Below are positions 29,936 through 40,677 of a DNA stretch of 64,000 bases, piece by piece. The translations under genes were made by a program, and so were the position numbers. The notes under the pieces are model-generated. The model searched no databases. It was given only the letters and a program-made list of their open reading frames with translations, and had not been told where the DNA came from. Source of the stretch: Pneumocystis sp. 'macacae' (taxonomy: Eukaryota; Ascomycota; Pneumocystomycetes; Pneumocystales; Pneumocystaceae); the NCBI GenBank assembly GCA_018127085.1, contig CM030729.1, positions 186,001 to 250,000 on the forward strand, written 5' to 3'. Within the stretch, counting starts at the first letter, position 1; every line of letters starts with the position of its first letter.

Positions 29936-31067
29936 AAAACAAGAAAACATTATCGAATCATTATAACTGCTAACTATTATTACTGTTGAAAAAATATTAA
30001 TTGCCATTAAAAAAATATCAATCTATAACCATTTAGAAACACCATTTTACAATCACTGAGCATTCATTATAACTATGGATTATTAAACAACTCTACGATA
30101 TCACACTGAAATAATTAATCTATGACTTATTTTCCAAACAACATCAATTTACTTTTTGTATCTTCAATAAATATTATCCTCAACAACATTATAGTATCTA
30201 GAAGAGTGTCTTTTTAAAAAATAGCGATTTCTTACAAAAAACATTTTCATATGTAAAACTATACTTTTGTTCTAAAACTTTTTTAAAATTTATACAAAAT
30301 AGCCCTAGAGCGATAATTCATTCTAACAATAAAAACATTATTATATTACTTGAAAATTAACCTTTTAGTTTAATAACTGAAAAAACTCATCTCCAAAACA
30401 AAAAAAAAGTTTAGTATTTAACCAAATCTAGTTATATTTATAGGGACAGATATCATAGCAAACTGATTTAATATCTTCAATCTATATCGAGCTTATTAAT
30501 TGCATCAATATCAATGCAGATAGCTTTAAATTATATATATCAAATCACATGCTGTATATAAATTCTATATCTACTATACATACGGATTAATTATGTATTC
30601 ACATAAATATAAATTCTATGAGTATGCACTGACTGTACAGAATACATATGTCAAATAAATACAACTAATATGTAACTGGCAATATATTTCATATATATGC
30701 ACTATGCATTCATTATATATGCACACTATATACATGTTGTATACATTTTATATTTATACTGTATGCATTTATGCATAATATATATATTACATATATATTA
30801 ACAATATGCTTGCATTTTACACATTATTTTCTGATCACATATGCACCATATGTATTATATTTTTACTGCATGTACTATATATATATTGCATGTGCATTAT
30901 ATATATATTGCATGTGCATTATATATATATTGCATGTGCATTATATATAGACTACATATCAAAATTTCATAAAACATGCTTCTCATTGTCCCTAATAACC
31001 AAATATATTTGTTATGTTTAAAAAGATATTCTTTATTTAAAATGCTTTTACACTTTCTATTCAGCAT
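29936..31067. other. Intergenic region rich in TATATA / TGCATG repeats
   Basis: This is about 1.1 kb between vps24 and a minus-strand PGA2-like gene. From about 30540 the sequence becomes a mosaic of alternating purine-pyrimidine steps (TATATGCAT, TGTATAC) and includes a 22-bp tandem repeat. No coding signal was recognised; peptides read through the repeat are periodic artefacts. Confidence 0.6.
30868..30950. repeat. 22-bp tandem repeat TGCATGTGCATTATATATATAT, about 3.5 copies
   Basis: Three adjacent units built from TGCATGTGCA followed by a (TA)n tail are visible, with a partial fourth. The block is almost purely alternating purine and pyrimidine, and it contains the palindrome TGCA. It sits in the intergenic region left of the GC island and looks like the AT-rich counterpart of the alternating tract at 33.8-34.5 kb. 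Confidence 0.8.
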
Positions 31068-31346: not shown

Positions 31347-32128
31347 CTGTAAGACACGTGATAGCCATTACGTTTTCAAAACGTACAAGACATATGCTTC
31401 TATATATAACATGTGTAAAATTTCAGGTATTTAGTATAGAAAAATATTTCTAAAAACGGAATAAATAATATAAAAATCAATATTAGAAGTTGCACAAAAT
31501 ATATCTTTAGAAATAGAGAATACTTGGTAAAACAATATGCACGTGACACAAGGAGAAAGTAAAACAAGAAAAAGAATAAAATAAAAGTATAGAAATGTAT
31601 GAATAAAAGAAGAGATTAAAATATAGATAAATCACCTACTAGAAGACATGGAGCATCTAGACCGCCTGTAAATTATATATATTGATGTCAACTATAGAAC
31701 AATGTGAAATTAGAAATACAAAAAGTGCAAAAGTAAAGTACAAAAAACATAAAAATAGAGAAAACAATACATATTTCGGTTCAAAAAAACACAAAAATTC
31801 AGTATATTCTTTATAAGAAGAAAAATATCTTGTCTTAAAGTAAAATGTCTTTTTCGAGGTTTTTCTGAGGGTCCGACGGTGCGGGTATATAAAAAAACGG
31901 GGACAAGCCACGTCGAAGTACAAACGACCAAATCTCACAGTGACACTTTATAACAAAGAAACGCTTAAAAACACAACATTCGCGGCTATTTTAAGGCTGG
32001 GCGGTAGTATTTAAGCAAAAGAGCATAAGGGTTTGCATACGTGTGAGTTTGTTGGTATTTCTCTGCTTTTTTCTGTGTCAAAGCACGTTTATATATTTTC
32101 CGATATCCTTTGGTAAATTAAAGCGATA
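31347..32128. other. Divergent spacer between PGA2-like gene and mlo3
   Basis: About 780 bp hold the promoters of both divergent genes. Composition rises from AT-rich to mixed toward 32.1 kb, marking the left ramp of the GC island. Around 31850-31910 a GC-containing patch ends in a TATATAAAAA run, a plausible but unproven TATA-like element. A 93-residue minus-strand frame here lacks any recognised similarity. Confidence 0.45.
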
Positions 32129-33137
32129 ATGACACCATTAGACAAATCTTTGGACGGTATATATGATGTGTATGGTGTGCAGCAAGTTGGATGCTAATAG
32201 CTGCAGAAATTATCGCTTCAAGATCAAGATCGGCACAGATACGAAGAGCCCCAAGACGGGGGAATCGAAGAATTATGAGGGGCCGTATAGCAGGACGCCT
32301 GAGTAGTCGTGTAGCAGGCCGTGTGGGGACAAGAAGATTCAGGGATATTGTGAGCTCAACGGCAGCGGCAATACAGGCAGTGATCGATGAAGGCAGCAAA
32401 ATCATTGTTAGCAATTTGGTAAGTATCTGGCTCTAGATGCATTTGGCGTGTAGGGACCAGGCTGACAGGCACCAGCCGTCTGATGTAACCGAAGCTCAAA
32501 TTAAGGTATGAAATCATCAAAGCAAAGACTTTAAGAAGCGGAACTATCGCCCTCGTTTGGACGTCGTCGCGTTTCTCGTCCGTCGCTTTTCTCCTTCATA
32601 TTCCTTGATATTCATTTACCAACCACTATCTCCTGCTTCAAAGGACCTCTTTTCTAATTCCATTGGACCTACACGCAGATGCTTTTTGAGCTATGGCCCC
32701 AACGGCCAGTCAAAAGGCATTGCTACTGTAGTTTTTCAAAGAAAAGCGGATGCCGGCCGAGCGTATAACAAGTACGAGGGAAAAGTCATCGATGGTGCCC
32801 GAAAACTAAAGGTCTTTCTCCCCCGCCCCACTATCCCCTAACCCCCGCAGATTGAGATTGTCCTCGACCCTAGGATGTCTTTGGCTACTTCTTCTCTTTC
32901 CCAGCGTGTCGCCTCCGCATTTCCCCGGTACCTTTTCCCCTCCTGCCGCCCCTAGCTAATTCTTAGGCCTCGGAAGACCGGCGGACTGAGAAGAATGGGT
33001 CGTTTCAGGGCCCCCAGGCCCAAGAAAACCGCCGAGGAGCTGGATGCCGAGATGATTGGTAAGCAGCCCCCCGTCTCTGCCCCGCCTCACACTCTGCAGA
33101 CTACTTTGGGAGTGCTAACCAAGAAACTGCTGCTTAG
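32129..33137 (+). CDS. mlo3: mRNA export adaptor of the Yra1/Mlo3/ALYREF family
   Basis: This RRM adaptor couples splicing and 3'-end formation to mRNA export. Exon 1 (MTPLDKSLD) carries the UAP56-binding-type motif. A Arg/Gly-rich N-terminal region follows (RRAPRRGNRRIMRGRIAGR), then the RRM: IIVSNLPSDVTEAQIK, then DLFSNSIGPTRRCFLSYGPN, GQSKGIATVVFQRKADAGRAY and GKVIDGARKLK, IEIVLDPRM. The C-terminus (GGLRRMGRFRAPRPKKTAEE, LDAEMIDYFGS) is the conserved UAP56-interacting end; stop at 33135-33137. Introns: about 32157-32201, 32416-32475, 32506-32643 (138 nt, the longest), 32811-32850, 32929-32967 and 33060-33101. Base composition climbs along the gene from moderate at the 5' end to strongly GC-rich at the 3' end. 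Confidence 0.9.
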
Positions 33138-33261
33138 ATACATCTTAGATACATAAACCTATTCTATATTCTATAGTATAGACTAATTTAAACCCGTTGC
33201 CCCAGACTGTTGCCTAGCAACGCCACCCCTGCCAGCCTCGCTGCCCACCAGTCACGTGCCG

Positions 33262-33761
33262 CTATATCCGCGGTGTGAGCGAGTGGGGCGCCTTCCGTGC
33301 CACTGCCGCCCGTATATTCTCCTTCTTGCCCCGTGTCCTGGCGTCGGGCCTTGCATGCTGCGCCGCATACTCAGCCATCAGCTCGTGCTGGCCGTGTAAG
33401 ACTTGTCCAGACAACCGGGACATACAAGACCCTCGTTCCGCCGCGCACAGAGCTTCTGCATCAGCACCGCCTGCTGCACCACCCACCTACAAGCACATCC
33501 TCGACATTGACAACCTTTCCGCCCCGGTGCTTCGCAAACGACTCGACATCCTCGCCCAGCGTGTGGATCTGCGAGAACACAAGTGTCGACAGCGACGCGA
33601 CAAACCCCGATGTTGCCGTCGCCCGCAGCTCCAGAGACTCTGTCTCTGCAATCTGCTCGGTCGCGTGCCAGACTGCCGACTCAAGCGCTGCCATAAGCCC
33701 CTGCTGCTGCCCCGTCGACCATACCTTGTCGCTGCAGCGCCCTCTCTTCAGCCGCAGCCAT
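33262..33761 (-). CDS. mhf1: CENP-S / Mhf1 histone-fold protein (spliced, minus strand)
   Basis: CENP-S (Mhf1) forms a histone-fold dimer with CENP-X for kinetochore assembly and Fanconi/FANCM-type repair. The start at 33761 gives MAAAEERALQRQ. A 37-nt intron ending in TATGGCAG joins ALESAVWHATEQIAETESLE. The core then reads ATATSGFVASLSTLVFSQIH, TLGEDVESFAKHRGGKVVNVEDVL, the hallmark of CENP-S. A second intron (GTAGGT...GATGCAG) leads to KLCARRNE, and a third to VLHGQHELMAEYAAQHARPD and a basic tail, ending at 33262-33264. Each exon joins in phase. The gene lies in the GC island, convergent with mlo3 (125 bp between stops). Confidence 0.82.
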
Positions 33762-33779
33762 TGCTCGGACGCTGCACCG

Positions 33780-34480
33780 CGCACACGCACCGCTACACCG
33801 TGCACTGCGCGCATGCACAGCGCATACAACACGCATACATTACGCATACACTACGCATATAGTGCGCATATATTGCACATAGAGCACATGCAACGCACAC
33901 CGTGCATATACACGCATGTACTGCGCATACAGCGCACATATACTATGCATATACACGCATATATTATGTATATATGCACATTCCGCATACAATACGCATA
34001 CACCCGGAACCCGGAGATACACACATATACCGTGCATATACCGTGCATATACCGCGCATACACTGCAGCGGTGCACCAGTGTGCATACGCCCGCATACAC
34101 CGTGCACTGTGCATACACCCATATATTGGCGTACGTGCGTGTATGCACAGTGGGCATATGTGCGGTGTATACATCACACGAAGCGTCGCACAGCGTGTAT
34201 GACCGCACTTTAGGGTGTATGCGCTGTATATGCGTATTGTATGCGTATTATATGCGCGCTGTATGCGCAGTATGCACAGTGCACTGCACATGGGTGTGTG
34301 CGCTCTGCGCTGTGCAGCACGTGTATGCGCACTGTATGCGGGGTGTATGCGCAGTATATGCGGTGTATATGCATAGTACATGCGTGTATGTGTGCACTAT
34401 ATGCGTGCTGATGCGTGTATATGCGCGCTGCGCGTGTGCGCCATGCGCCGTGCATACACCCATGTGCCGCACATACACCG
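33780..34480. repeat. Alternating purine-pyrimidine tract arranged as a large imperfect inverted repeat
   Basis: About 700 bp consist almost entirely of alternating steps (GC, CA, TA, TG, CG) built from variants of GCGCATACAC on the left and GTGTATGCGC on the right. The left arm (about 33.78-34.12 kb) is CATACAC-like, and the right arm (about 34.13-34.44 kb) is its complement-like GTGTATG. At the centre CACTGTGCATACAC (34105-34118) and GTGTATGCACAGTG (34139-34152) form an exact 14-bp inverted repeat around a 20-nt loop. The tract lies in the intergenic space before the acyltransferase gene. Z-DNA or cruciform potential follows from the pattern; function is unknown. Confidence 0.8.
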
Positions 34481-34507
34481 CACAGACGCGCTCGCCTGCG
34501 CCCACCC

Positions 34508-36540
34508 ATGGCCGCCTTTGCATACGACCTCGTGCTCTGGATGATGGCCGGTAAGCCCCCCTCTCCTCCCACTGACCTCAGTCCTCATCGACCTCTTCTT
34601 CCGCGACGTCCGCTCCCGCGGCGCATTCCGCATCCCCACAAAGGGCGCCCTCATCTTTGTTGCTGCTCCCCATGCAAACCAGTTTGTCGACCCCCTTCTC
34701 CTCATGCGCCAGGTGCAGCTTGCTGCTGCCCGCCGTATCTCCTTCCTCATTGCCGAGAAGTCGATGCGCCGCTGGTTCATTGGCCGCCTCGCCCGCCTTG
34801 TCGCCTCAAGTATGCCCTCTCTCTGCCTGCTGACCTCAGTCCCTGTTGTCCGTCCCCTCGACCGCCTCCGCCCCGGCACGGGCCGCGTCCGCGCTGCCGG
34901 TGCTGCGCTCTGTGGCCGCGGCACCCGCTTTACTGCTGAGCTTGGCCCGGGCTCTGTGGTTGTTGTGGGTGGCTGCACGCTTGAGGTTGCAGCAGTCCTG
35001 TCGGACTCTGCAGCAGCGCTGCGGGCTGCAGCCAGCAGTCCCTGCGACTGGGCGCCGTTTGAGTATGCAGCAAAGGTCGACCAGACAGCAGTCTATGCGG
35101 CAGTCTTCCAGCGGCTCGACGAGGGCGGCTGCATCGGCATCTTCCCGGAGGGCGGCAGCCACGACCGGACTGATCTCCTCCCGCTCAAGGGTATGTGTGT
35201 GCAGACAGGCTGACAGTCAGCGGGTGTAGCAGTCATGGCGCTCGGGGCGCTGGCGAGAAACAGCGCCATCGGCCTCAAGATTGTCCCCTGCGGCATGAAC
35301 TACTTCAATGCGCACCGCTTCCGGTCGCGCGCCGTCCTTGAGTTTGGGATGCCGCTGTCTATCCCGGGCGAGCTTGTCGAGCAGTACCGCCGCGGAGAGC
35401 GCGAGGCAGCAGTGCACGCGGTGCTCGAGATGGTCTCGCGCGCCCTGCGCGCAGTGACCGTCCGCACGGCGGACTACGAGACGCTCGTAGTCGTCCAGGC
35501 GTGCCGGCGGCTGTACCGCGGGGGGCGGCAGGGGCTGCAGCAGGCGGTCGAGCTGAACCGGCGGTTTATCGAGGGATACAGCCAGTGGCGCACAGACAGA
35601 CGGGTCGAGCGGCTGCGGCAGGCAGTCCTGGCATACGAGCGCGAGCTGGAGCTGCTGGGGCTGCGGGACCACGAGGTCGACAGTGCACGGTACAGCGGGG
35701 CGCGGGTGCTGCGGGAGGTTGTGTATCGGAGCACGAAGTTTGTGGTGCTGGGGGTGCTGGCGCTGCCGGGGGTGGTGCTGTTTTCGCCGGTCTTTGCAGC
35801 GACAAAGATCATCTCGCAGCGAAAGGCGAGAGGTGGGTGTGTGGGGCAGGAGGGAGCTGACGGTGCAGAGGCACTGGGCGGATCGACAGTCAAGATCGAG
35901 GGCAGAGACGTGCTGGCGACGTGGAAGCTGCTCGTTGCACTGGCACTGGTGCCGGCGCTGCTGGTGGTGTATTCGGGGGTGGTCGCATGTGTGGGTGTGT
36001 ACTATGGGGTGGTGGGGTCGCGGAAGAGTGTGTGTGGGGTGGTGGTGGGGAGTATGGTGGGGATAGGAGTGATTTCGTTTGCAGCGCTGCGGTTTGGGGA
36101 GAGTGGGCTGGACATATACAAGTAGGGAGCAGAGGGGGGGAGAGGGGCTGACAGACAGGTCGCTGCGGCCGCTGGTGCTGAGTCTGGCATCGGCAGACAC
36201 GATGGAGAGGCTGCGGCGGACACGGGAGGAGCTGGCGGTCGAGCTGACAGAGGTGGTCAACGCGCTGGGGCCGGGGCTGTTTGCAGACCTTGAGCCGGAG
36301 AGGGTCTGCACAATGCCTGAATACATGGTCCAGGAGGGCGGGGCGGGGGCGGGGAGGGTCGACAGTCTGTGTGAGGAGACGGAGAGAGAAGGGGCGACGG
36401 GGGAGAGCTTTGAGGAGGTGTCGAGGAGGGTGCGGAGGGCGATGCGGCAGAGGATGCGGCGGCGGACACGGGGGTGTCCGGGGACAGGGGGAGAGAGCGC
36501 CTACGGGTCGGTGAGTGGGAGCGAGGGCGAGGCAGAGTAG
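34508..36540 (+). CDS. Glycerol-3-phosphate acyltransferase (Sct1/Gpt2 family)
   Basis: This enzyme makes lysophosphatidic acid from glycerol-3-phosphate and acyl-CoA in the ER. The start at 34508 gives MAAFAYDLVLWMMA. After an intron, VLIDLFFRDVRSRGAFRIPT leads to the acyltransferase block: AAPHANQFVDPLLLM (the HX4D-type motif appears as HANQFVD), RRISFLIAEKSM, then IGIFPEGGSHDRTDLLPLK (FPEGGSH) and AVMALGALARNSAIGLKIVPCGMNYF. The latter part has VLGVLALPGVVLFSPVFAAT and LLVALALVPALLVVYSGVV membrane spans. Introns are GC-rich but keep CTGAC branch sites (at 34552, 34812, 35191, 35836 and 36126). Codon choice flips from C-ending in early exons to G-ending in later ones. The C-tail is unusually Arg/Gly-rich. 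Stop at 36538-36540. Confidence 0.9.
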
Positions 36541-36861
36541 GTGTGGTGCACACTGGGCAGGTGCTGCCGGTGCAGCATCAGGAGAGGCACTGGGCAGTGC
36601 TAGGACGGGCACTGGGCAGGGCTGGGGCAACAGTGCGGTAGGGCGAGTGCACTGCCGCTGGTGCCGGGTCAGGGTGTGGGCCAGGGCATGGGCTAGGCCA
36701 CACAGGGTTGGGGCTAGGATAGGGTTAGGGCAGGATTAGGGCAGGGAAAGGTTGGGCAGGGCAGGGATAGCTAGGGTTGGAATAGATAGGGTAAGGTTAG
36801 AATAGGCAGGGTTAGGGTAAGGACAGTAGGGTCGGGTTAGGGTTAGGGCTGGCCAGGAGGG
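36541..36861. repeat. G-rich degenerate TTAGGG-like spacer with G-quadruplex motif
   Basis: This is the convergent 3' spacer between the acyltransferase and mpg1. From about 36690 it consists of variants such as GGGTTAGGG, GGATAGGG, GGGCAGGG and GGGTTGG. At 36829-36848 it reads GGGTCGGGTTAGGGTTAGGG, which fits the canonical four-run G3 quadruplex pattern. The unit resembles the fungal/vertebrate telomere repeat TTAGGG, but it is degenerate and surrounded by unique genes, so it is interstitial here. Confidence 0.75.
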
Positions 36862-38755
36862 CTACATGATGATGGCAGGGACCTGGGGGTCAGATGTGCA
36901 AGGGGAGGGGAGATACCTCGATGTTCTGGTCGATGCTTTTGTGTGGGAGGATGGAGCCGCCGTTGACGTAGACCTCGTCTCTGATGGTTACTTTGGGGGG
37001 TGAGTGGGGAGGAGGAGGGGGGGAGGTACCGTCTTCGCCGAGGACAGAGACGTTTTCGAGGCGGGCCCACTTGCCGACAGTGGAGTTCCAGCCGACGATG
37101 GTGCTCTCGATCCATGCATGGTTGCGGATCTTGGAGCCCTGGAGGATGACGCATCGTTTGAGACGGACGCCGTTGCCGATGGTGCAGTCGGGGCCGATAA
37201 CGACGTTGGGGCCGATGCGGCAGCAGCTGCCGATCTTGGCAGAGGGATGGATGATGACGTTTCCGCCGTAGATGTAGGGGCTTGTGTTGTCGAGACAGGA
37301 GGGCTTGTGTTTGGCAAGAGAGGACAGGTAGAGACAGGTGCCGGTCAGGTAGTCCTTTGGGTGCCCAATGTCCTGCTGAGTGAGTCGGGAGGGGGACGCA
37401 TGTGTGTTGTGGAGACCATCCAGTAGCCCTCGAGATCATAGCTGTGGAGCTGGCCCTGGGCAGCCATTGCAGGGAAAATCTCTTTTTCGATGCTTGTTGG
37501 ACGCAGAGAGATGCGCTGCAGGATGGATGTGTTGAAAACATATATTCCAGCATTGATTTTGTTGCTGACAAACTCCACGGGCTTCTCGACAAAACGCTCG
37601 ATTTCCGAGCTGGAAGGCTTCATTACGACGACACCGTATTTGGAAGGCTCTTCGACTTTTGTGACAACAATAGTGCCTTCGGCTTTGTGAAGCTGGTGAA
37701 AGCACAGGAATTGTGTAAAATTGTATTCGCAAATGATGTCTGAGTTGAGGACAAAAAAGGGCGAATTATCTTTTTCAAGTATATTGCGTGCAAGCGCGAG
37801 TGGACCTGCTGTACCTGGAAGAGACGTGGGTTAGTAATAATATTGGTATTTTAAAGTGTAGCCGCGTAGTGGATGAATGTTTAGCCAAGAATACTTATTT
37901 ATATATCCTTGGACGAATAGTTTCACAGCTCATTGGATAGAACCGCACTTATACAAATTATTTTAGCTAAATAAATACTAGCCAATAGCGTGTTTAGGAT
38001 TGATCTGTGCTCTGCAAAAGCTCTAGAATAAAGTGCTATTGTTTGATGCCATTCATTTGGCATTCTTTTGTAATCTTTATCCATACCTAGTGGCTGGAAT
38101 ACATGAGATGAATAGACAATGAAAAGGCATTTCGCCCTTATAGCATACCTCGTTTTCCACGGAAAATGTTATATTGATGTGATATTGTTGTTCATAATGT
38201 TTGAGGGTCGAAACCATGATTTCCGAGCAATAGTTAACCGCCAATACGATATCTAAATCAGCATTTTCATGTCATTCATATTCTCATGTTTCTAACCATC
38301 TACCTGTCACCCCTGCTGCTGCCAGAGCCTCAATCTGGTGAACTGTGCGAATCAGTGTAATATAAATACAAAGAAAAGCACTGACGAATTATCGGTCGGT
38401 TTCCAAACTGTAATTTTTAGCTCTTCTACTTTTATATCGTGTATAATACTTCAACTAAAGGTTTTGGCAGAGTCAAAGTCTGTAATTATTAGATACATTT
38501 GGAGACTCAGTCTTGCGCATAGAAACGCAAATGGGTACATACAAGCGGCCGTAGCCGTGTACCGTATCCTGCTCACATTAAAAATCATTCTTCTGAAAAT
38601 TCAATGCGTTGATAGTTGAAACAAAAATATATTCGTTATTAAATATAGCAAAAATATTGATTTTTCTTAGTTTACAGACAACGATATAATGTACCTTTAT
38701 ACAACGCTTATTCGATGCTCTAAAACGTACCTCCGACAAGAATTAGTGCTTTCAT
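36862..38755 (-). CDS. mpg1: Mannose-1-phosphate guanylyltransferase (GDP-mannose pyrophosphorylase)
   Basis: This enzyme makes GDP-mannose, the donor for N- and O-glycosylation, GPI anchors and wall mannan. Exon 1 is MKALILVGG (start 38755). A long intron of about 170 nt leads to YGTRLRPL, and further introns to [10 protein letters not shown] and [13 protein letters not shown]. The nucleotidyltransferase core continues to [38 protein letters not shown] and LEGYWMDIG. The C-terminal left-handed beta-helix has [17 protein letters not shown] and [17 protein letters not shown], ending VPAIIM at 36862-36864. Introns and exons of the 5' half are AT-rich and those of the 3' half GC-rich, with the ramp near 37.6-37.85 kb. 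The gene is convergent with the acyltransferase. Confidence 0.93.
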
Positions 38756-39298: not shown

Positions 39299-40677
39299 AT
39301 GACTCAAAAAAAATGTACCGATTTTGTTAAGGTAAAAAAATAGAATAAATATTCTTCTTATAATTTTAGAAACTTCCTTGTGAATTGTCTTTTTATATAT
39401 TTGCATATCTTTCACATGTTGAAGTTTTAGTATGTATGTTGGTGTGTAAACGATGGTACACAATAGCAACACATCCTTTAATTTGGAAACAATTATATAA
39501 ACGCCAGCAATGGAAAATTAACTATGAGCGTATTTGGCGTTGTGAAGAATGGGCAGAACAGGAAACGCAACGTCTTCGTGATTGGATAGCACAACATCCA
39601 CAGCAATGTTCTCTTGAGCAAATACTTGAGCAAATATTACCGATGGATAGTATGTTTCGTCCACCTCATATAATGTTTTTGTCAGGTACTGAACTTGTTT
39701 TAAATTGGCGATTTTTGTATCTTCAGCGCTATCGATTGCTTAAAAATTGGGAGAAAGGTGCATATATATGTTACACTGTCCCCCGAACATTAACATTAGG
39801 ATATGACGAGATGCATCAGGATGGGATTTATTGCATTGAGTTTGATAGAAATTGGATTGTTTCTGGGTCAAAAGATACAACAATTCGTATATGGGATTTA
39901 CAAAAGGGTCTATGTCACAAAGTGTTTCGTGGACACCGTGCAAGTGTATTAACTCTTCAATTCGATGTCAATATGAATGTTCTTGTTTCTGGATCAAGTG
40001 ATACACTGGTCATTATTTGGAATTTAAGTTCTGGAAAAATACTTTCGATATACAAGGGACATACTGATAGTGTTCTAAGTCTTTGCTTTGATACAAAACA
40101 TATCGTAACTTGTTCAAAGGATTCTACAATCCGAATTTGGCATCATGTTGGTCATGTAATTGGGGAAAAACGGCATTATATTCATGTACTTAGAGGACAC
40201 CATGCGGCTGTTAATGCTGTTCAGCTCAAAGAAGATCGAATTGTGAGTGCTAGTGGTGATCGGACAATCAGAATATGGAATGTATATACTGGTACTTGTT
40301 TGCGCACAATCATGTGTCATCAGCGTGGTGTTGCGTGTTTACAATTCGATGGTAAACACATTGTATCAGGGAGTTCGGATCATTTAGTTCGACTATTCGA
40401 TGCGGATTCAGGTCAAGTACTACACACTTTTGAAGGTCATTTAGATCTTGTACGCACAGTTCGATATCATTCAGATAAAATCATTTCTGGTTCGTATGAT
40501 GAAAATATATGTATATGGGATTTATTTTCCGGAAAATTACTACATCAAATTAAAAGTAAAGATGCTGGTCGTATTTATCGAATTGCATTTGATGATATTC
40601 GTATCGTGAGTTGTGGACAAAAAAAACATATTATTGTATATGATTTTGGGCATGATATAGATACCACTTTTTTCTAA
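39299..40677 (+). CDS. F-box/WD40 substrate receptor of an SCF ubiquitin ligase
   Basis: Exon 1 (MTQKKCTDFVK) from 39299 splices at about 39331-39369 to KLPCELSFYIFAYLSHVEVLVCMLVCKRWYTIATHPLIWKQ, a typical F-box that binds Skp1. A helical linker follows (ERIWRCEEWAEQETQRLRDWI). Seven WD40 repeats run from about GIYCIEFDRNWIVSGSKDTT to YDFGHDIDTTFF, with repeated GxHxxxV and WD/YD signatures (RIWDLQKG, IIWNLSSG, RIWHHVG, RIWNVYTG, RLFDADSG, CIWDLFSG). This is the architecture of Pof1/Pof11/FBXW proteins. Substrates cannot be read from sequence. An exon farther upstream is possible. Confidence 0.86.

Follow-up and report, generated by a model that had tools for sequence, protein, structure and literature searches.

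What could make a short run of ordinary genes GC-rich within AT-rich DNA is the question raised by this locus of Pneumocystis macacae. In the window, i.e., the whole 64-kb stretch of DNA that was analyzed, positions 32150-37707 are 59% GC (0.592), the edges being set where 400-bp smoothed GC exceeds 0.42, a cut-off that we chose. The twelve 500-bp windows at 32001-38000 have a mean GC of 0.575 (minimum 0.41), and the remaining 116 have a mean of 0.27 (SD 0.052, maximum 0.382). By this measure the GC-rich island that a sequence-only reading had described over ordinary genes in an AT-rich window is real, and the base counts given there (50 of 60 at 34861-34920, 17 of 60 at 37921-37980) are exact.

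Genes and composition of the island

The island contains the following features (coordinates within the window).
32150..37707, no strand: GC island (400-bp smoothed GC > 0.42; GC 0.592)
32150..34932, no strand: C-rich left arm, skew -0.14
34933..37707, no strand: G-rich right arm, skew +0.31
34933, no strand: centre, where the top strand turns from C-rich to G-rich, in acyltransferase exon 3 (minimum of cumulative G minus C)
32512..32841, + strand: RRM frame, the mlo3 of the sequence-only reading (PF00076, E 2.5e-8)
33461..33850, - strand: CENP-S frame (PF15630, E 1.6e-16)
34508..36537, + strand: glycerol-3-phosphate acyltransferase-type gene with six exons (exon blocks, PF01553, orthologs)
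36890..37830, - strand: C-terminal half of mpg1 (mannose-1-phosphate guanylyltransferase) in two frames, holding the upper island edge (PF25087, PF00483; GMPPB/nucleotidyl transferase)
33800..34480, no strand: alternating purine-pyrimidine stretch (alternation 0.86; value for the window 0.47)
36680..36850, + strand: degenerate TTAGGG array (5 exact TTAGGG, 9 TAGGG, 0 CCCTA)

The gene content first proposed is backed by Pfam at the level of domains, with an RRM frame for the putative mlo3, CENP-S, acyltransferase, and GMPPB/nucleotidyl transferase frames for mpg1. The claim that exons, introns and spacers shift together also held, GC being raised alike in all three in this island (acyltransferase GC3 0.79, its five intron gaps 0.53-0.69, two island spacers 0.52 and 0.63). 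A profile in 200-bp windows, which had been suggested as a check, confirmed the island and revealed that both edges are gradients across roughly 1 kb rather than steps. Both edges had been placed inside genes; the upper one does fall within an mpg1 frame, where GC3 drops from 0.61 on the inner side to 0.48 on the outer side, but the lower one could be placed only close to where mlo3 begins.

The top strand flips from C-rich to G-rich at about 34.93 kb, within a single acyltransferase exon, and the third codon positions follow, with C74:G18 left of the switch and C127:G270 right of it. The outermost left arm (32201-32400) opposes the C-rich trend, with a skew of +0.25.

Strand-polarized islands and their orthologs in other species

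A C-rich left half joined to a G-rich right half was present in 16 of 16 islands examined, which range in size from 2.7 to 6.3 kb. Thirteen were located through relatives of the alternating purine-pyrimidine stretch at 33800-34480, with which they share a repeat (a selection effect); one came from blind sampling, one was predicted from a single probe, and one is the island described above. This census is of sampled loci rather than a whole-genome scan, and probes 3-3.5 kb apart may skip narrower islands. When skew was compared about the midpoint defined by GC, which is set without use of skew, it was antisymmetric in all 16 islands vs 1 of 20 AT-rich 5-kb blocks, and a block permutation was passed by 15 of the 16. 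The polarized zone extends about 2.5 kb on each side of the centre; in the mean profile the centres were set by skew, which sharpens that profile. Contig C10, probed end to end, carries four islands spaced 86-137 kb apart (average about 107 kb). Three were counted on C6, including one at C6:316 kb that is known from a single 300-bp probe (GC 0.66) in which the skew switch was unseen. Island centres often fall inside genes. A centromere identity was ruled out, as there are several islands per chromosome (at least four on C10, three on C6).

Degenerate telomere-like arrays recur among the islands: TTAGGG units in the right arm of the present one, CCCTAA runs in the left arms of L020 and L021, and a CCCTAA pair in L016; in L019, unlike L020 and L021, a CCCTAA pair lies right of the assigned centre. 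These arrays may be products of the skew. A chromosome fusion at the 36680-36850 array was rejected, since perfect triple TTAGGG turned up nowhere but close to where contigs C10 and C15 start. GCAGC-rich words are over-represented at the centres: GCAGCCGC occurs in 11 of the 16, against a simulated mean of 2.5 and a maximum of 7. Over 100 simulations the most frequent 8-mer reached 10, the centres were positioned by skew and the margin is small; a shared GCAGC-rich centre motif is offered as a lead only. The P. macacae 'RG protein' family comprises 190 Arg/Gly-rich proteins (PMC7940399); the idea that these are spurious island frames was unsupported, one Arg/Gly-rich island frame matching no protein at E 0.01.

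The comparison of orthologs that the sequence-only reading had proposed was carried out at the protein level for two islands, those of the acyltransferase and of MON2, two of three protein searches having yielded orthologs. Six of the best 7 among 120 listed acyltransferase matches are named Pneumocystis species, and MON2, which spans AT-rich into GC-rich sequence, has Pneumocystis orthologs. The best acyltransferase matches being other Pneumocystis species, vertical inheritance is supported over the transfer that had already been argued against. Changes were scored only in columns with agreement among three comparison species, namely dog and two rat species or, when the dog species itself was scored, rabbit and two rat species. 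For P. jirovecii, columns are missing over the beginning of the acyltransferase and over part of MON2, which its gene models do not cover. The P. macacae acyltransferase has 32 FYMINK-to-GARP and 0 reverse changes, and MON2 has 22 to 1 inside the island zone vs 6 to 1 outside. MON2 evolves fast within this zone and at an ordinary rate outside, fast GC-ward protein change being confined to the island. The P. jirovecii acyltransferase has the same amino-acid shift about the same point of the gene, and the MON2 island zone is shifted likewise in P. jirovecii and P. oryctolagi, whereas the dog and rat Pneumocystis species have the shift at neither gene. At these two loci the islands are partly common to sister species.

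A literature search agrees with the earlier remark that no described Pneumocystis island of this kind was known: such islands are undescribed in the titles and abstract starts of the best-ranked matches (the best 4 to 25 of up to 24,082 papers), a search that covers subscription literature sparsely. The term 'GC-rich' is absent from the main texts of PMC7940399 and PMC4764891, and 'GC content' is absent from the former and used twice in the latter, for whole genomes. The central C-to-G switch, the island class with its recurrence in the genome, and the traces in other species were all absent from the sequence-only reading and go beyond its single-island observation.

Probable break hotspots and rival explanations

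GC-biased conversion hotspots are marked by local AT-to-GC enrichment of all site classes and by composition-driven protein change, and stable hotspots are expected where PRDM9 does not shift them. Both marks are found here, in the joint rise of exons, introns and spacers and in the local AT-to-GC change (at the protein level, in two islands). The islands are probably best explained as long-lived hotspots of breakage (recombination) whose repair is both GC-biased and strand-asymmetric. Each island would be a fixed point of recurrent DNA breakage, with the break sited at the strand switch; the breaks would most likely be meiotic and Spo11-type, at hotspots that have kept their place since before the P. 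macacae/P. jirovecii split. Resection of the ends would be followed by outward synthesis to either side over as much as about 2.5 kb, with correction or copying that prefers G:C over A:T. If G were also preferred over C on the outward-synthesized strand, the top strand would become C-rich on the left and G-rich on the right; such a bias could arise, for instance, from strand-specific repair of G:T mismatches to G:C. The genome contains a Spo11-family gene and Rad51-family genes. The local GC-biased-repair hotspot of the sequence-only reading, in which recombination was likewise inferred, stands as the best fit; conceived without the class, the switch and the sharing among species, it is incomplete, since plain GC-biased conversion alone does not predict a central strand switch.

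Several points weigh against the break-hotspot explanation. As we read the human data (PMC7615360), the mutations at human hotspots would give the opposite skew, and the island centres often lie in genes, unlike the large intergenic sites of fission yeast. The low diversity of P. macacae (about 0.1% SNPs among isolates, or 0.8% divergence among assemblies; PMC7940399) speaks against conversion bias, since this requires heterozygosity. A purely mutational hotspot does not need it: error-prone synthesis inserting G on the new strand would refill fragile sites or breaks that recur in mitosis or meiosis, with no homolog conversion. Strand-antisymmetric composition is natural for one-strand mutation, human meiotic breaks raise strand-asymmetric point mutation within 2 kb (PMC7615360), and the telomere-like and alternating repeats of the islands would suit repair slippage. 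We nevertheless consider this explanation rather unlikely, because the polarity is contrary to the human case as we read it (PMC7615360) and because Y-family polymerase domains were undetected, in a search that ignores introns and is not proof of absence, which counts against error-prone fill-in by such polymerases. On the same two points we rejected the Y-family translesion mutagenesis proposed for human hotspots. The main rival is that the centres are replication origins, whose bidirectional forks would enrich the outward leading strand in G, while initiation-linked synthesis or repair would raise GC. A G-rich leading strand is the general sign of skew, and the islands fit it; the window flanks at 4-30 kb agree (-0.084 left, +0.075 right), as does non-ORF flank sequence (-0.171 left, +0.105 right), and at 0.5-2.5 kb beyond the edges the left skew is below the right in 8 of 11 islands. 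Replication skew should, however, run along the replicon, and of the seven islands sampled at 4-30 kb just three have left below right and the present one alone crosses from negative to positive, which speaks against origins. Origins would also leave unexplained how GC reaches 0.65 from about 0.27-0.3 over 2.5 kb, and the 86-137 kb spacing on C10 is wide for fungal origins. We hold this explanation to be unlikely.

Transcription could act if R-loops at divergent promoters protected or exposed the non-template strand, giving opposite skews on each side. Divergent gene pairs are indeed found no more than about 1 kb from some centres (CENP-S/acyltransferase here, AAR2/uS11 in L015, Whi5-like/EMP24 in L013), and the skew sign matches the coding strand in 8 of 17 gene intervals; position, however, matches it in 15 of the 17. 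The switch sits in one acyltransferase exon, on one coding strand, and both the minus-strand mpg1 of the right arm and a plus-strand DEAD-box helicase in the left arm of L026 are skewed against their coding strands. Skew tracks position, independent of transcription; divergent-promoter R-loops or a CpG-island promoter were rejected as a general cause, and we regard the explanation as very improbable. The sharp contrast in composition might also suggest horizontal transfer, contamination or misassembly, the chance of which is close to nil: orthology of the acyltransferase and MON2 in two islands rules out transfer and contamination, one anatomy is common to 16 islands, and the assembly was built from Nanopore and Illumina reads (PMC7940399).

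Implications and comparison with known systems

Extending the break-hotspot explanation, we tentatively propose, as possible rather than probable, that in primate and partly in rabbit Pneumocystis dozens of fixed, spaced sites of outward synthesis, perhaps non-eroding programmed breaks, rewrote their surroundings, including proteins, into polarized GC islands, with a G-outward bias opposite to the human footprint, and that the genome alone displays the position and reach of each site. If islands are break hotspots, base composition alone would provide a recombination map for an organism that can be neither cultured nor crossed, and, if true, this would test the fixity of hotspots since the P. 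macacae/P. jirovecii split, put at about 62 million years (PMC7940399). As a natural experiment, the islands would also show what repair does to sequence, the bias being sufficient to rewrite housekeeping proteins, and their strand polarity can separate models of heteroduplex repair. Gene models within islands may be unreliable (one example in this analysis), and fast evolution of island genes need not signal host adaptation.

With GC-biased conversion hotspots in general (PMC7403616) the islands share all-site AT-to-GC enrichment and composition-driven protein change; the Pneumocystis contrast is, however, extreme (GC 0.65, up from 0.27-0.3, over 2.5 kb) and strand-polarized about a centre, a polarity not described for such hotspots in the literature consulted. 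In PMC7403616 'GC skew' denotes enrichment and not strand asymmetry. The runaway GC regions and GC-outlier gene clusters of gerbils (PMC7403616) are alike in extreme local GC, raised substitution and the AT-to-GC direction of amino-acid change, but they are large regions or gene clusters, in contrast to kilobase islands recurring along chromosomes. Human meiotic breaks (PMC7615360) act over about 2 kb per side, the strand effect being reversed across the break, and their resection of 1-2 kb per side is comparable to the reach of about 2.5 kb in Pneumocystis. Mutations at human hotspots are C>N and A>N on the overhang strand, which loses C and A, whereas the would-be overhang in Pneumocystis is C-rich; because of this opposite sign we do not class the islands as a human-type footprint of break-induced mutation. 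Fission yeast, also a member of Taphrinomycotina, has similarly wide-spaced meiotic break hotspots, about 65 kb apart on average (PMC2580034). These lie mainly in large intergenic regions, whereas Pneumocystis centres are often in genes and about 107 kb apart on C10, and the parts of PMC2580034 used here make no mention of GC islands at them. For asexual Candida (PMC3845650), fungal GC differences have been ascribed to recombination or replication, the same two rivals as here; the regional variation in Candida was modelled from codon third positions, whereas in Pneumocystis it takes the form of discrete, polarized islands.

Composition and strand switch of the island

The sequence-only reading had claimed a GC-rich island over ordinary genes, and our analysis confirmed it, since all twelve 500-bp windows of positions 32001-38000 have a GC fraction of at least 0.41 vs at most 0.382 in the 116 others. 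Its edges are gradients in GC. The window occupies bases 186001-250000 of contig C10 (485010 bases), in a genome of 8.27 Mb. The relevant features are:

32150-37707, GC island with an RRM frame (putative mlo3), CENP-S, the acyltransferase gene and the 3' half of mpg1
33800-34480, long alternating purine-pyrimidine (TGCATA-like) stretch
34508-36537, acyltransferase gene, reading frame intact across six exons
~34933, centre of the island, within acyltransferase exon 3
36680-36850, degenerate TTAGGG array, right arm
39370-40677, F-box/WD40 gene

Third positions are 79% GC in the acyltransferase vs 22% in the F-box/WD40 gene; acyltransferase intron gaps reach 53-69% GC and two island spacers 52% and 63%. 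TGCATA-like stretches also occur in other islands matched by the repeat search described below, and are AT-rich in the flank (30680-30970), with GC enrichment in those within the island. The match of the acyltransferase protein in Pneumocystis sp. 'macacae' is PMAC_000356, a database model of 410 residues. It begins in exon 4, so that roughly the N-terminal third is missing, and uses another frame near the C-terminal end.

The top strand is C-rich to the left of the centre and G-rich to its right, a switch that had escaped the earlier reading. On the one coding strand of the acyltransferase, third positions change from C74 T23 G18 A5 on the left to G270 C127 T52 A52 on the right, while the mpg1 C-terminal-domain open frame, which is on the opposite strand in this right arm, shows C117 and G22 and so again places G on the top strand. 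The skew is therefore set by neither codon choice nor transcription. Based on Pfam domains and the acyltransferase exons, we compared 17 intervals from seven islands, a partial set because most of the 30 island frames scanned had no Pfam match; skew had the sign expected from the side of the centre in 15 of the 17, and from the coding strand in 8. The two exceptions are the outer RRM interval, at +0.03, and a ribosomal-protein interval located at the switch, at -0.08; two matching intervals are also near zero (-0.02, +0.04). Skew goes with position, not transcription.

A class of polarised islands and its spacing

A genome search with positions 34000-36000 gave matches to simple alternating repeats elsewhere, and the 13 matched places that were then examined over 10 kb each (L009-L021) all proved to be GC islands of the same build. 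Seven further 10-kb pieces of contig C10, taken without regard to repeat matches, comprised one more island (L026), five AT-rich pieces and the contig start (L022, C10:1-10000), which is GC-rich and carries a TTAGGG telomere. The subtelomere there is strongly C-rich (skew about -0.6), and reverse frames of this piece are rich in Arg and Gly. One GC-rich, C-rich probe at C10:404 kb predicted an island with the switch to its right, and a 2.65-kb island (L123) was found there, with skew -0.17 and then +0.44.

When islands were split at a GC-defined midpoint, without use of skew, the left half was negative and the right half positive in 16 of 16, vs 1 of 20 AT-rich 5-kb blocks. Within-island block permutation was passed by 15 of the 16, L019 failing it (p 0.057). 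Averaging 15 islands gives a profile in which GC is 0.65-0.66 at the centre and drops to 0.32-0.36 at a distance of 3 kb, and GC skew runs from -0.31 to +0.30, with AT skew at most 0.11 from zero. Across the 16 islands, GCAGC-rich words cluster around the switch (within 250 bp) slightly more than in dinucleotide simulations. Degenerate telomere-like arrays read CCCTAA on left arms (L016, L020, L021) and TTAGGG on the right arm of the window's island, L019 being an exception. The replicative helicase genes MCM6 and MCM2 adjoin two islands (L009, L011), probably by chance.

The whole of C10 was covered by pieces together with 300-400-bp probes placed every 3-3.5 kb. Its islands are centred at 84, 221, 318 and 404 kb, giving spacings of 137, 97 and 86 kb. 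A weaker feature at about 262 kb (L124, C10:260001-264500; GC 0.41) has the same switch, from -0.45 to +0.46, and may be a young, nascent island or a fading, decaying one; the second C10 piece with GC above 0.4 (L125, 472-476 kb) had no skew switch. On C6, 160-382 kb, islands lie at 165 and 373 kb, and single probes were GC-rich at 316 kb (0.66) and 0.45 at 278 kb. Extrapolation from C10 alone would give a genome total of the order of 70 islands. The average gap between fission-yeast break hotspots is about 65 kb, according to PMC2580034.

History from orthologous proteins

We compared the acyltransferase and MON2, a gene of another island on C3 (matching PMAC_002103), with orthologs from P. 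jirovecii, P. oryctolagi, P. canis, P. carinii and P. wakefieldiae, measuring amino-acid shift as the share GARP/(GARP+FYMINK). Over acyltransferase residues 61-180 this share is 0.79-0.80 in P. macacae, 0.73-0.79 in P. jirovecii and 0.12-0.53 in the four others. Past residue 240 it stays at or above 0.65 throughout in P. macacae, and in P. jirovecii goes from 0.58 to 0.26 (residues 541-600) and 0.00 in the last 22 columns. The switch falls at residue 122, so the signal in P. jirovecii surrounds the same position and covers a shorter stretch. Over the first 100 MON2 columns, P. macacae has 0.79, P. jirovecii 0.68 and P. oryctolagi 0.74, and the dog and rat species have 0.35-0.50; past column 700 no such difference was seen among the six species (maximum 0.38, P. 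macacae).

Change rates were counted only in alignment columns on which the comparison species are unanimous. For the acyltransferase, the changed fractions were 0.27, 0.37 and 0.49 in P. macacae (32 FYMINK-to-GARP changes, reverse 0), 0.25, 0.14 and 0.07 in P. jirovecii (20, reverse 1) and 0.06-0.14 in the rabbit and dog species. For MON2, the two zones lying towards the island centre had fractions of 0.33 and 0.26 in P. macacae; farther out its fraction was 0.15, compared with 0.11-0.13 there in P. jirovecii and the rabbit and dog species. These rates and their direction indicate a local and directional process. It is common to P. macacae and P. jirovecii at two loci, barring two independent origins at the same points; PMC7940399 puts their split at about 62 million years.

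Origins, breaks and repair as candidate causes

GC that is symmetric, and G versus C that is antisymmetric, about a point imply that something acts outward on the DNA, on the other strand each side. The main rival to a break hotspot is that island centres are replication origins, for which the skew sign fits a G-rich leading strand, the flanks of the window's island agree in skew out to 30 kb, and left skew lies below right just outside 8 of 11 islands. However, at 4-30 kb only the window's island, among seven, goes from negative to positive, left lies below right in only 3 of the 7, and a pure origin model leaves the GC rise unexplained. We therefore regard origins as unlikely, although a site may be both origin and break hotspot.

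We consider a long-lived break or recombination hotspot with GC-biased, strand-asymmetric repair the probable explanation. A double-strand break would occur at the centre, its ends would be resected and new strands would run outward; GC-biased repair would raise GC, and strand-specific correction or copying would produce the skew by favouring G on the nascent strand that runs outward. A Spo11-family match lies at C12:219.9 kb, and the genome also has matches to the Rad51 family, the uracil-DNA-glycosylase superfamily and B-family polymerases. PF00817 and PF11799, both Pfam domains of Y-family translesion polymerases, had no match genome-wide, which counts against the simplest version of this explanation; it is possible that these enzymes were lost or are hidden by introns. 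Conversion bias requires heterozygosity. Diversity in P. macacae is low according to PMC7940399, which also argues against the simplest version.

In human hotspots, PMC7615360 places C>N and A>N mutations on the overhang strand; as we read it, this pattern gives a skew opposite to that of the islands, again against the simplest version. Among top-ranked matches of our literature searches, we met no account of GC islands with strand polarity in Pneumocystis. Hotspot GC bias, runaway GC in gerbils and strand-asymmetric hotspot mutation are each known separately, and if the polarity proves to require a new repair rule, the islands could be a categorical novelty beside them.
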